NCBI GenBank assembly: GCA_903813345.2
Contig: CAIIXF020000008.1
Span: 17,404,822-17,468,821 of the forward strand
DNA: 64,000 nucleotides
Direction of reading: 5' to 3'
Source: Owenia fusiformis
Taxonomy: Eukaryota > Annelida > Polychaeta > Sabellida > Oweniidae
Below the pieces are notes generated by a model that had not been told where the DNA came from, searched no databases, and saw only the letters and a list, made by a program, of their open reading frames with translations. Below, in pieces: positions 28,501 to 55,500 of the stretch. How positions within the stretch are numbered: position 1 is the stretch's first letter; every line of letters starts with the position of its first letter. Both the position numbers and the translations under genes were made by a program.

Positions 28501-31500
28501 GGCATATAGTTTGGGAAACTTAAATAAAATCAAATAATGGTAAATTGAGGTTTTATAAGATAATAAAAGCAAAATGGAACAAGGAACCCTACTTGGATTT
28601 AATCAAAAATGAAATAGACAGAAATAACTTGACAAAGCTAAGAATTAGGTCGTTACACAAAACCAATTACCCCTATTGAAGAAAGAAAATGTTTAATGTG
28701 TAACAAGAAAACCGGTTCAGAATGCCATTTCCTATTAGAATGCAATAAGTTAAAAGATGTTCGGTCAAGTTAGATGGATAAAATAAAAAAACACTGTCAA
28801 AATTTAGAAAACATGAATAACGTGGAACATAAATTAATGTTTCTATTTAATTCAGAGGGAATAATATTAAATATACTAGCAAAATATATATCTAATATTT
28901 TTATCAAGAGAAAAAAACACGAAATGCATCCAATAAAATCTTGCAATGATCAAGCACCCTAGTTAATATAATATATAGATAGTTAGTTAAGCTTTTTAAT
29001 TTTTTTTCTGTTTAAGCTGTACACTTTGCCCAAATGTATAATAAAGCTCATAATAATAATATATGAACATTTATAGATGGGCATGTAATATTAATTATTA
29101 TATAATATTGATTATAATAAATCAAACTCCAAGATCCAGTGAATCAGAGGACAGTGAAAGTATTACTATTACTCTATCCATGATAATTAAAAAGAAAATT
29201 AATTTATTAAGCTCCAAACAAATAGTTACTTCTCTTGCAGTGAAAACCTGAAGGGCCAAAGGGAACACATCTTCCGTCACTAAAAGCGCAATAAGTATAC
29301 AACAAAAATATAATTTGATAATAACAAATATTCAATAAAATTTGTTATCAGCACTTCCATATATGGTCATTACTTACCCGACAGTTTTTGTTCCACCTCC
29401 ACCATACTGGCTTGGCGCTGCCGTAATTTTTGTATAAGTTCTAAAATTGTGAATTAAATTAGATTAATATTAATTTTCAAAGAAAAAATACTTAATGGGC
29501 ATGTACCACTGCCATAATTTTTTTCAATGTGTAAACCTATTTAAGTTGATACATTTATAAGTTGGCAATCAGGTGATATAGACAGTAATATAAAAATGCA
29601 ATGTGTTATTTTGTTTATAGACAACTACATTGCATTGGAGGGGATCCCAATGAACAAAAAAATGATCACCACTAAGTTAAACTGATAAGTTGTACACTAC
29701 ATGTACGCTCGTATATATGTTTATAGTCTTATCCTTAGCTTAGTATTGCACCAGGCCCCTATATACTGTTTAATTGGTAATTTTGTCTAGTCATTTAATT
29801 TGCCCATTGTGTAATTTTTGCCAGGTTCGGAAAATTAAATGTTGGAAATATTATCTTCATAATGTTATACAATGGGGAGTTTCTTGTCAATAGGAAAACT
29901 AAAATTAGGAAAATGATAAAATTTGACAATTCGGCAAAAACACTCAGATTAAATACCACTTATACAGCATCACCTCTCTCAAATAATATATACAGCTCAT
30001 AAACAAGTTAGTACTGAAATAAACGGGGGACCAAACTTGATGCAAATTTGTAATTAGCAATCAATTTCTTACTTCCATCTCCTAACATATTGTAGAGGTT
30101 CTAGGTCACAGTTAGAGCCCTGCAGTGCAACACTGTATTGGTCAATCTCAGCCTGAAATATACATTTTAACATACAGTTAGAGCCCTGCAGTGCAACACT
30201 GTATTGGTCAATCTCAGCCTGAAATATACAATATAACATACAGTTAGAGCCCTGCAGTGCAACACTGTATTGATCAATCTCAGCTTTAAACATACAATAT
30301 AACATACAGTTAGAGCCCTGCAGTGCAACACTGTATTGGTCAATCTCAGCCTAAAATATACAATATAACATACAGTTAGAGGCCTGCAGTGCAACACTGT
30401 ATTGGTCAATCTCAGCCTAAAATATACAATATAACATACAGTTAGAACCCTGCAGTGCAACACTGTATTGATCAATCTCAGCCTTAAACATACAATATAA
30501 CATACAGTTAGAGCCCTGCAGTGCAACACTGTATTGGTCAATCTCAGCCTAAAATATACAATATAACATACAGTTAGAGGCCTGCAGTGCAACACTGTAT
30601 TGGTCAATCTCAGCCTGAAATATACAATATAACATACAGTTAGAACCCTGCAGTGCAACACTGTATTGATCAATCTCAGCCTTAAACATACAATATAACA
30701 TACAGTTAGAGCCCTGCAGTGCAACACTGTATTGGTCAATCTCAGCCTAAAATATACAATATAACATACAGTTAGAGGCCTGCAGTGCAACACTGTACTG
30801 GTCAATCTCAGCCTAAAATATACAATATAACATACAGTTAGAGCCCTGCAGTGCAACACTGTATTGGTTAATCTCAACCTAAAATAAAGAGTAATCATGG
30901 ATATAGTTATCCTTATCACATGATATTGTGTATGTGGGGGTTCTTTAACTTGTGTTACGAGAGATTTTGATAATGGCCTGTATATCCTGAGGAAAATTAA
31001 GATATCTTGCCTATGGTAGGAAGATACAATTTCTATATCCCACTATTACATACTTTGTGATTAGAATTTTTATTTAACTGCGAAAAAAAATTTTGTAATG
31101 AAAACTCAGGACAATCGATCGACATTAATTAGTATAGCAGATCTGCTCAACATATATATTACCATAAAAGGGCATATACATGTACTGCATGTACTTACTT
31201 CTGACATTTGAGGCCCACAAATGAGAGCTATGATAAACAACCTCATCTTGTCTTCTGGGGTTCCAGCTACAAAAAATTATTTAGTTAAGATTATTATTTC
31301 ATTTATATTATTTTTACTTAGAATTAATGTGATGAAGAATGAAAATGTAAAAATGTCACAAATTGTGGAGGTCAAAGTTATCAAACTGGGGGTCATTAAC
31401 AGAAACTTTGTAAAGTTACAAATTCCTAAATCAATTGTTGTAACCATGGATATAATGACGTCACAGTTTGAGAACAATGGACATTACGAATTCCTAACTT

Positions 31501-34500: not shown

Positions 34501-37500
34501 AGGACAAGGCAATAACACACAAAATGCTACCACCTGAGATTTTTTACAGACGCAAACCTCCAAACACTGTCCACAAAAACGTTGGGTACAATAACAATAT
34601 GTTACCACAAGCTACTGACTATGTGTCTGAGTAAAGTTCATTCTTTGCTTCTGGGCTTGTCCTTTTATCATAAATAAATGTACCGGGACACATATTTAAG
34701 TACTTTGAACAAGCCCGTAGCCAGGATTTGCCAAGGGGGGTTCAGTTTTCAAAAATTTCCAGGACGGGTTCACATTTGACAATTTTGACCCAAATATGGT
34801 GAAAATCACTTAAGTGCTCAAAATGGTGAAAAACTGCATAATTTTGAAAGAACCGCCCCCCTGGCTACAGGCCTGTTGAAAAAATTACTCCTTAATCCTA
34901 AATACCTCCATGATTGATAATAATTGAGACAGCAACACCTCGAACTTATATTTGTCTGAATTATTCAAATGAAAATTCCTCACCTTCCTTTGTGAGTATG
35001 CCAGAACTTGTCATGAGGGTCAAGGTCATACGATTTCTTTTTCTTACGTGGTGGACGAGCTTGCCCGGGAACAGGCGCTGATTCTGCATCTTCTATTTCA
35101 ACACGATTTAATTTTAAATCCTAAAAGATAAATATTCATCCCTTATACATTATTATCAATAAGTTCACATTTTTAGTTTTAATTGTGCAAAAACAGTCTA
35201 AGAGACAGTCAGTAAAAAAAAGAAAAATGCTATAAATTAAACAATTTAAAAAGACCCCACCATCTTATAACCGGAAGTTCACCAAATGAAAAACAAGTCA
35301 AATTCCCAGAGATTTTGGCGATTATTTGATTTGGTGATTTTTTGGATTTGCCAAATTTACCAAATTAAAACGCTCGCCAAATTGAAGACAAATATATGAA
35401 CAATATTTCAATCTTAATCATATGATACTCAATATACTATATACTCAATATGATATTACTCAAAATCTTATATAACTCAAAATCATAAGCTATTACTCAA
35501 AATCATATGATATCACTCTAATTATATACTACTCGAAATTGTATGATACTACTCAAAATCATGTACATGTAGTACATGTATATCAATTTGACCCTATGAA
35601 TATTTCAAACTTTTTTTCTCCATGCAAATGGATGTGATATATATATATCAACAATATGTGTGGGATGAACCAATTACATTGAAATATTATACTGATATTA
35701 ATAACTAACTTTGGCATACCGCATGTAGTATTCATGTGATGAATATAATCAATATTAAGTATTAATTTATTAATACCAAGTGTGATCTGGTTGGGGATTT
35801 AAGGTAGCTCAGCATGTTCAGAAATTTCAATGGGTCCCTGATTGGAGGCTGATATTGGTTTCAGGTACACATAACTATCTATTTTGATTACACAATGTAA
35901 CATCAATGATAATGTATCCTTTTGAATGTACTTTTTGAACAATTTCACATCAGATTTACAACTAAACAATATGCTATATGATTTAATTAAATATATCTAA
36001 AAAATTTAAAATCTATTCAAAGGATTGGTATTGATATATTGAACTTTTTGAACACACGTTTCTCTTAAACCAGTCATCAAAAAATTCTGAAAATTTTACA
36101 CATTGAAAATTTAATGGTCATCTTTTGAATGGTAACAATATTATTTGAAAAAAATGTGTATACTTCTCTAAATTGTTTAAGAAAAAACAACAGACACTTC
36201 TTTTGTTCTTGGTATCATATGTTCAGAATGAAACGAAACATTTATCCGAACCTCATTGGAACAAAATGACATAAACACAACGTGTTTAGGTCTCTCAATA
36301 TTGTAATTGTACAAAGGAAAGTTTGGTTGATTTAAAAAAAGTATCTTGTTTATCTTAATCTTTATCTATTTCGAGGGTTTTTGTTTTAATTTTTTGAATA
36401 CTTTTTGTAAAATCAACCAAAATTTCCTTTGTATAACTATAATATTAAGAGGTTTAAGAAAATGTTGTATATGCTATTTTGTTCCAACAAGCTTCAGAAA
36501 GATATTTCATTCCCAAGAATTAGTAAAAAGGAACAAAGAACAATTGCACTAAAAAACAAAAAATGTTAACAAATACAGTTATATATATAAATATACAATA
36601 TATAAATAATTTTTGCATTAAATTGTTGTCAATCAGTCAAAATTACATAAAGGACCGTGTTTTTTACAAATGTTTTCAATAATTGGTTTAAGAGAAAAAC
36701 TTTGTTAAATTCAGTTCACCATATCGATACCAATCCTTTCTGAACATGAGGATATACAGTATTAAGTGTTTCAAAAATTCTTGAAAGTCCATGAATATAG
36801 TTTCATTTCTTTGTATACTTCTGTCAATGCATGAGATAAAATGAATTTCCCATTTTTAGCTGAGAGGGTGTACTATATACCCAGGATGTACTATACAAAG
36901 TAGGTGACGAAGATATTAAACATAGGATGTACGAAGACATTTGGAAAATTGAAGATATTAAATATAGGATGCAAAAAGACATTTGGAAAATTGAAAATAT
37001 TAAATATAGGATGTAAGAAGACATTTGGAAAATTGAAGATATTAAATATAGGATGTAAGAAGACATTTGGAAAATTGAAGATATTAAATATGGGATGTAA
37101 AAAAACATTTGGAAAATTGAAGATATTAAATATAGGATGTAAGAAGACATTTGGAAAATTGAAGATATTAAATATAGGATGTAAAAAGACATTTGGAAAA
37201 TTGAAGATATTAAATATATGATGTAAGAAGACATTTGGAAAATTGAAGATATTAAATATAGGATGTAAGAAGACATTTGGAAAATTGAAGATATTAAATA
37301 TAGGATGTAAGAAGACATTTGTAAAATTGAAGATATTAAATATAGGATGTAAAAAGACATTTGGAAAATTGAAGATATTAAATATAGGATGTAAAAAGAG
37401 ATTTGGAAAATTGAAGATATTAAATATAAGATGAAAGAAGTCATTTGGAAAATTGAAGATATTAAATATAGGATGCTTTAATAAGTTTGTATGTGTCACT

Positions 37501-52500: not shown

Positions 52501-55500
52501 GCGAGTTAGTGCTTTTCTTGCCTGTGAACATTTAACATCCAACAGGTAGTTTTCAAAACTAAATAACTTTTTATGATAGAGGAATTATCAAAATGTTAGA
52601 TTTCTAACGCACATGGTATTGGTCCAAACTACTGTAATCTCATCTGACTAATCACAAAATCATGGTAGCATTTAAAATCATTGATTTTTAACACCTTTTA
52701 TCTTTATATTTACTACGAATACTATTTCACTGATGGATGGCTATTTATTCTTCAGATATTGAAAGAAACATACGATTTAAAAATATTTACCTTTTTCAAA
52801 TTACAAACCGGAAGTCGAGCACTGAACGAAAAGCTCCTTAAATACTAGTATTCATGTAGTTTCCCAGGAATTTGCAAATTTTAGCGCCCGGTTTATTTTA
52901 ACCCCGGTTTATTTTAGCGAATTGAATTTTTAGCGAAACTATAGCGATCGCTAACAATCGCTAACAATTACCCCTCGCTAACAATACCCGTTTTACAGTA
53001 TTAGCAAATAAAGTGAAGTGATGATTTTAAATTAGAAAGTAAACCCATATGACAGTTTTTCTTGAAGAGCACAGACAAGAATTTGAGTAACTTGGTTCAA
53101 AATGGCAGACAGGAAGTGGAAACCTTGTTTACAACTACAATAACAACTAATAATGAACCCAAATGTACTCCTGAAAAGATAGAGCCGATACCTCCAGCAA
53201 TATTTTGTATGGAATATATTCACTCTCTGCCTTACATTATGTTCTTACACTAGCTAGTGAACATCCAAAAATGGCATTTGTTGCAAAACCACATCTCGAT
53301 ACTACTAGTAGTAGTAGTAGTAGAAGTAATTCCATTCAAGCATTAAGGAGGTAAAGTTTCTTTTTTGAGCAACATAAAACATGTAAAATTACAATTGCAT
53401 AGAGAGTTGTTTTCCTTTTCCTCTTTGTGGCCTTTATTGTCCCTTGTGAGCGTCCCCCCCCTAATATGCACCTTCCCACAAGGTTTACTAATTAGTTAGT
53501 GCCGTCACTGTTCTTGATGTGCATAAGGGGGACTTCTAGATTGAGTATAAAGGTGAAAGGAATCAGTTGTAATTAGCTCTCTGTATCAACCTATTGAGAG
53601 GAGAACAATAAACACAATCTCCCCAATATCTGTAACTTAACCATTCTGTTGTTTAAGCCATGAGCTTTCAATATTGAATGCCCATGTTTAAGCACTTTTC
53701 AAAAGTGAAATTCGGAACCTTCGAAAAGAACTTTAAATGTAATAGTACATGTACTTCAAACTCTCACCTGAATTGACCAGCTTGTATACTGTCAGCTGTG
53801 AATAAACTGTTCCGTGTGTCCCGCAAATTGTCTCTTAACTTTTTGTCTAATTTTTCTGCTACCATTTCTGCTGCATTTCCTCTAGGGCATCGTATTATCG
53901 GCACCGTGCCTTAAAAAAAGTAGTTCCAAAAAAGTAGTTCCAAAAAAAAGTAGTTCCAATAAACGGAGATACTAATAATAGTCAATTTAGGAAATTTTGT
54001 TTCACTATATATTTTTCATAGGTCCTTTAACGCTAACCAAATTTTCATGTCTTTAGTTAATGGGAACAAAAAACTAGAAAATGGAAACTCTGTGGAGTAG
54101 CAAACCCCAATGAACAACATATCATTTCTCAAATGTTAAAGTATTTTTAGTTCACAACACAAGATATTAACAAGCAAGGCATTAACATGCAAAATGTCAC
54201 CACCTGCCATTTGTGACAAATGCCAAACACTAACTGCCGAACATCAACTGTCAAATGCTGAGCATCGTCCACTTGTGGTGGTGACATAAAAGCAGAATTA
54301 CATAACATGTTAAAATTAATCATTTGGTCATACAGAATGGATGAATTACAAAGACTTACCCATTGTGACAAACAGACAAAACAAACTATCCACTATAGAG
54401 TCCATGATCATTTCCATCTCCGTGTCCTTTACGTCACCACGATTTAGAGCATAGTAGGATATTGTATGGCTGTCTTGATGCTTTAGCGCAAACATATCAT
54501 CCTCTAGACTTATAAAATTAAGGTACTGGTCAAAAACCTGGAAGTTAAATATCAAAAATGTAAAAAAAATATATAAAAATACCCAGAGATATGTACCTGG
54601 ACCATTCTTGGTAACAAGCATTCAATCCATTGATGTTACCATGGCAATCATTGTTTAGAGTTACACAGGAATTTAATTGCTTCATTGACAAAAAATTAAA
54701 TGTAACACAGCCACAAAATCCTTTTGAATTCATGGCTTCAAGAATGCAAAGTTTTCTATTGCTATGTCAACATTGTGTTGACAGAATATGGTTGTTCATG
54801 GGGTTTAAAGAGAAAAATATTGAAAATAAGATGCTAGAGCCAGTTGTTCTAAGGAATCACAAAACATTTACAAGCAATTGAGGATTCAAAAGTCTTGAAG
54901 AACTAGGATGGTATCATCAGTTTGAACATTTCTTAGCTAGCCAGAAAACTAGGAAAATCAGAATTTCAAATCCAGCTGAGAATTGGTTTAGTTACAAACT
55001 TAGACAAAGGACTTAATGCTTACTAGAGATGTCACGGAACAAAAAAAATCGGAACGGTTCGGAACATTTTGCTTCGGAACGGAACAATTTTGAAACGGTT
55101 TGGAACAGAGAGACTGCGTGTATAAGATTAAAATAAAATAAGTTGATCATCTAGGTCTATTTGGTAGCGAAAAGCTCTTAAAAACTCTTCAATGAGAAGG
55201 AGTGAAAAGAATGAACCTCATGCTATTTTGTGGAGATTTAAGGGCCAAAAGTTGTGAAAGGGTAAAATGTTCTTCTTCCGGAACCTAACCAAAATTCTCA
55301 ATTTGTGTTCCGTTCCGAGGGCATAATTCCGCGGATCGGACAAAATCGGGTATCTGTGACACCTCTGATGCTTACAATCTGAATTTATAGGTTGATGATA
55401 TAAGTGGGTTTCGTAATGAGACATTTTGGATATGGGGTTTATCCCAAGGCAAAATTCATGTCACCATCCGGCAAATACACATTTTTTCAGATTTTTTCAA

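Follow-up and report, generated by a model that had tools for sequence, protein, structure and literature searches.

An array of eleven extra 66-bp units adjoins the upstream side of a genuine exon of the SCFD1 gene and is best explained as a neutral "mirage" minisatellite, a reading given a probability of roughly 0.8. The units lie head-to-tail on the minus strand (30878-30153; all positions are those of the window, the whole 64,000-base stretch analyzed, which has a GC content of 33%), and each combines 45 nt of exon start with 21 nt of intron end. The array belongs to a known kind of repeat, the mirage, already known in lancelets. Analysis of the copies suggests that it is without function, most likely silent and ignored by the splicing machinery.

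The sequence matches identify the host gene as SCFD1/Sly1, which codes for an essential housekeeping SM protein. A tblastn search with the human SCFD1/Sly1 sequence as the query gives 20 rows, all on the minus strand and collinear from 62312 to 23236, with the weakest single rows at E 0.67. The gene (minus strand, 62312-23236) thus appears as 20 stretches in order, covering human residues 20 to 636; its first exon was not located. Sec1 (PF00995) exceeds the Pfam cutoff on two SCFD1 exons, on one of these only together with its neighbors. The 71-aa stretch formed by the array-adjoining exon and its neighbors matches no Pfam family and no Sly1 structure, the best structure being an endonuclease (E 0.096), so the gene identity rests on the Sec1 matches and the human tblastn rows, which agree with the gene and exon named in a sequence-only reading of this DNA. 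The exon beside the array (minus strand, 30152-30073; 80 nt, 26 residues plus 2 nt; donor GAA/GTAAGA) is intact, is entered in phase 0 and left in phase 2, and is in frame with the neighboring exons. The preceding exon (minus strand, 31266-31199; 22 residues) ends in phase 0 at GAA/GTAAGT, and the next lies at 29440-29378 on the same strand (20 residues).

When the minus strand is cut wherever the exon start recurs, 12 copies result in phase, of which eleven measure exactly 66 nt and the last is the real exon at 30152. The exon-like starts of the extra units are found at 30878, 30812, 30746, 30680, 30614, and 30548 (units 1 to 6) and at 30482, 30416, 30350, 30284, and 30218 (units 7 to 11). 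TRF places the array at 30108-30886 of the window, with a period of 66, 11.8 copies, 94% matches, and a score of 1397, far beyond chance for a repeat. All 11 extra units show the boundary-spanning anatomy. An AG (TAG, CAG, or AAG) precedes the exon copy in 10 of the 11, with AAA before unit 10, and TCTAACTGTATGT occurs in every extra unit. The sequence-only reading had described eleven 66-bp units directly upstream of the exon, 22 codons long and made of the intron end plus 45 nt of exon start, with the AG kept in most and GTATGT present in each; phased splitting and TRF confirm the arrangement, and the details of unit content hold as well. A DNA search of the source genome finds one place, the window itself, although this search skips some repeats and leaves a single copy unproven.

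Copies 2 to 12, compared as 66-nt units (21 nt of lead-in plus 45 nt), differ from each other by 0 to 6 bases (55 pairs). Copy 1 differs from the other copies by 11 to 15 bases, mainly because its 21-base lead-in agrees with that of copy 2 at just 12 bases in an ungapped comparison. Judged from these sequences, the divergence of copy 1 is the usual drift at an array edge, with the inner copies homogenized by concerted evolution. The 21 nt before unit 1 (minus strand, 30899-30879) have the highest acceptor score of the array (11.68) and are probably the original intron end. With only 12 of 21 bases matching, the lead-in of unit 1 is a putative source of the lead-ins of the other copies. Units three apart differ by a mean of 1.25 bases, compared to 3.3 for neighbors, and only 4 of 10,000 random unit orders do as well. 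Units 2-3-4, 5-6-7, and 8-9-10 form a three-unit, 198-bp higher-order repeat (minus strand, 30812-30219) with shared variants: GCC in units 2, 5, and 8, an ending in TTTAA(G/A) in units 3, 6, and 9, and GAT in units 4, 7, and 10. The near identity of units three apart and these shared variants indicate that the most recent growth took place in 198-bp blocks, and the three-unit period is a mark of ordinary minisatellite turnover. Some units have decayed, which fits copies free of selection: unit 1 now reads VEINQ, an in-frame TAG stands in 5 of the 11 extra units, and the AG of unit 10 is gone.

The neutral mirage would have begun with a tandem duplication that copied the intron end and 45 nt from the beginning of the SCFD1 exon, which is the presumed mutational route. 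Unequal exchange or slippage would then have raised the array to twelve copies, with the latest growth in three-unit blocks. Exon 31266-31199 is most likely still joined to the last acceptor, at 30152, because the remainder of the exon and its donor follow this copy alone. The remaining copies would be removed with the intron, with low-level use of neighboring acceptors being possible.

Lancelet minisatellites that span intron-exon boundaries include those of Adh3 and of the globins BflGb6 and BflGb9 (PMC3087553), and a study of PGBD5 adds troponin C and PGBD5 to these mirages (PMC3902484). These papers report undisturbed regular splicing together with length and somatic instability (PMC3087553, PMC3902484). 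As described there, the lancelet mirages are, like the SCFD1 array, tandem minisatellite duplications across an intron-exon boundary, with splice signals kept in many but not all units (here an AG in 10 of 11) and with homogenized inner units, the cluster edge excluded; BflGb6 likewise copies the 3' end of the intron and the 5' part of the exon. They differ in unit length (66 bp in SCFD1, 10 to 72 bp in Adh3, and about 150 to 160 bp in the globins) and in host, a cephalochordate in contrast to an apparent lophotrochozoan. The common anatomy with reportedly undisturbed splicing supports the neutral mirage, as do the exact phasing and the three-unit period.

Three further systems are related to the SCFD1 array. 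In human IFI6 (6-16, G1P3), two downstream minisatellite units serve as donors, leading to three mRNAs (PMC4526556); here, too, an exon-edge minisatellite has units bearing splice sites, but on the donor side instead of the acceptor side. The potato RdRp gene gained an intron by a tandem duplication which, as in SCFD1, runs from the 3' end of the intron into the beginning of the exon and passes on the acceptor, pyrimidine tract, and branch site; its donor came from the exon copy, compared to a junction-made donor motif in SCFD1, and one duplication sufficed there, compared to eleven extra copies. The SCFD1 array is described from its sequence, whereas splicing and length instability were tested in the lancelet mirages, transcripts using the units are reported for IFI6, and the potato duplication yielded a spliced intron. 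Human segmentally duplicated genes contain internal tandem repeats at exon-intron boundaries, sometimes with changed splicing, and similarly represent minisatellite expansion at exon edges, although in recent primate paralogues and not in a conserved housekeeping gene.

Poison exons, length-variable isoforms, and a neutral silent expansion had all been proposed for the array from its letters. The last is best supported, by the likeness to the lancelet mirages. The most testable alternative to silence is a possible low level of SCFD1 extended by 22 residues. Some transcripts would be spliced at acceptor 11 or 9 and gain 22 or 66 residues in frame before AEIDQY. An acceptor matrix built from the 19 other SCFD1 acceptors, which ranks sites and does not predict use, gives the real acceptor at 30152 a score of 8.06. 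The extra acceptors reach 11.68 in unit 1, 9.00 in units 5 and 11, 7.73 in units 2, 3, 6, 8, and 9, 6.61 in units 4 and 7, and 0.74 in unit 10, where the AG is lost. The 20 real SCFD1 acceptors, each left out in turn, span -0.7 to 13.6, and of the other AGs from 62000 to 23500 (1,870 in all), 1.3% score at least as high as the real acceptor. The ten extra acceptors that keep their AG score like real ones. Acceptor 11 is at least equal to the real site, so some use would be unsurprising, which counts against complete silence.

The reading frame also allows such an extension. Since the unit is 22 codons long, an upstream acceptor keeps the frame, and the frame is open through units 9, 10, and 11 into the exon (minus strand, 30350-30069; 93 aa). 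Extension from positions 9, 10 (AG lost), and 11 remains open to the exon end and adds 66, 44, and 22 residues, respectively, while extension from any of units 1 to 8 runs into an in-frame TAG. Three stop-free units beside the exon are expected by chance at about 12% with 6 of 11 units stop-free. These three units count as a point against the neutral reading, along with RNA folding and the lower variation of the exon part. The 153 nt of minus strand from 30284 to 30132, two-plus units, fold at -49 kcal/mol (z -3.17), with none of 200 shuffles as low; an inverted repeat within the unit might give strong folding without function. Exon-derived positions vary at 4 of 45 sites among copies 2 to 12 (three of the four silent), compared to 5 of 21 intron-derived sites, which is the direction of constraint but involves too few sites to claim it. 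IFI6 offers a precedent for repeat units used as alternative splice sites (PMC4526556). On the other side stand the reportedly undisturbed splicing of the lancelet mirages (PMC3087553, PMC3902484) and the possible harm of a duplicated helix start to an essential protein. Length-variable SCFD1 is a doubtful reading, with odds well below those of the neutral mirage.

A related and slightly less probable proposal treats the array as a self-contained acceptor ladder. CTAAC is found at -29 to -25 of 11 of the 12 acceptors, from unit 2 onward and with the real one included, within the exon fragment of the preceding unit. For the genuine acceptor, this branch-site-like motif sits in unit 11, in the portion derived from the exon (minus strand, 30181-30177), with the putative branch A at -26. 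Each exon fragment from unit 2 on would thus supply the branch site of the next acceptor, and the copy number adjoining the exon would set the count of possible 22-residue in-frame steps of SCFD1. Four branch-site patterns were compared, the choice among them being made afterwards, in a 30-nt stretch (-45 to -15) before each of the 19 other acceptors and at random minus-strand positions. Strict CTAAC occurs at 0 of 19 acceptors versus 1.8% of random positions, CT[AG]A[CT] at 1 of 19 versus 9%, [CT]TNA[CT] at 13 of 19 versus 51%, and [CT]TAA[CT] at 8 of 19 versus 16%, so that only the last two patterns exceed the random frequency. CTAAC as the branch site of the array acceptors is a guess from the motif, and through it the duplicated exon sequence may provide the branch site of the real acceptor. 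If the ladder were true, a real 3' splice site would be built wholly from a repeat, and a set of alleles of different lengths could modulate an essential trafficking protein.

The array might also act through poison exons, with 43-nt micro-exons or upstream acceptors adding stops or frameshifts and nonsense-mediated decay lowering the SCFD1 output, but this is very unlikely. GTATGT is present in 11 of 11 extra units, an in-frame stop is met from 8 of 11 upstream positions (units 1 to 8), one genuine SCFD1 donor is GTATGC, and the potato RdRp duplication across a like boundary reportedly did yield a spliced intron. The GTATGT that follows each fragment spans the point where exon TGT meets intron ATGTTA, which indicates that the motif was made by the duplication itself. 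As a donor (ACT/GTATGT), it appears weak: ACTGTATGT scores 4.07, below 18 of the 19 genuine donors (range of 2.56 to 11.21, each left out), and is matched or beaten by 10.2% of the other GTs in the gene (212 of 2,086, not counting array copies). The length of 43 nt given for the hypothetical micro-exon is arithmetically correct and would shift the reading frame. The acceptor of the next unit follows only 23 nt from the donor, so such a micro-exon must skip at least one unit (89 nt). The micro-exon part of the earlier proposal is weak for these two reasons, and in-frame extension, which the sequence-only reading does not mention, is the more direct route, with acceptor 11 adding its 22 residues without a stop. 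Least credible is a copy number that is wrong in the assembly: tandem repeats are easily misassembled, but the unit variants are ordered in a three-unit pattern, the genome search (which skips some repeats) finds one place, and the window holds many further arrays.

Arrays with a period of at least 15 and a score of at least 100 cover 7,301 of the 64,000 window bases (11.4%), and one of the 20 located SCFD1 acceptors (30152) lies inside such an array, compared to about 2 expected at random placement. With this coverage, random placement suffices to explain that an array meets a splice site. Acceptors 53909 and 55810 are each located 4 nt from a short array scoring 75 to 81, below the score threshold. 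The first of these arrays, a 16-bp unit of about 3.3 copies at 53913-53963, is the pyrimidine tract of acceptor 53909 (TTTAAG). A 42-bp array of 13.5 copies (36909-37475) lies 29 nt past the donor end of the SCFD1 exon at 37603-37504.

Sixty exon loci elsewhere in the genome were examined, 30 drawn from 144 kinase matches and 30 from 85 helicase matches (229 matches in total). An array with a period of at least 15 lies within 250 bp of the match at 13 of these loci. The 13 were judged by eye, with long arrays viewed over 150 bases only and with edges checked up to 250 bp from the match; in one of them, the array starts at an apparent donor, and this 1 in 60 is a rough figure, as some of the loci look intronless. 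The array in question (L026:667-1472; C11 near 19329697, minus strand) has a 23-bp unit in 35 copies, starts at the apparent donor GTAAGT of a kinase exon, presumably LATS-like, and contains 12 GTAAGT motifs. It appears to be a donor-side counterpart of the SCFD1 acceptor array in the same genome and is a nearer parallel to human IFI6 than the SCFD1 array is.

A literature search limited to open-license papers, and aimed only in small part at molluscs or annelids, found no such lophotrochozoan array. The SCFD1 array places the mirage anatomy outside the lancelets, in an apparent lophotrochozoan, with an apparent donor-side counterpart in the same genome. The lophotrochozoan assignment comes from a homeodomain search with 48 matches, among them a row of Hox genes on a single contig; of eight matches that were read, one has the Lox5 tail KLTGP and two have tails resembling the UbdA peptide of Lox2/Lox4, features that mark lophotrochozoans. 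Searches for COX1 (PF00115) and for mollusc haemocyanin (PF14830) gave no match, and the haemocyanin result is uninformative, as that search also missed all of its controls. Together, the two arrays suggest that other minisatellite-rich animal genomes may make mirages too. Mirages offer natural tests of how the spliceosome chooses among some twelve almost identical acceptors, and they supply raw material for the gain of introns.

An open frame of 291 aa across the array (minus strand, 31042-30167) was considered as a hidden coding unit and rejected. Its sole Pfam match, DUF1137, reaches 16.8 bits, below the cutoff of 25, and any frame without stops stays open through repeats of a 66-nt unit. 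Two other long frames lie on the minus strand in one large SCFD1 intron. The first, of 346 aa (49981-48941), has no Pfam match at E 0.1. The second, at 46196-45135, is an uninterrupted 353-aa frame for a rhodopsin-type receptor (7tm_1, E 2.9e-24), on the same strand as SCFD1.
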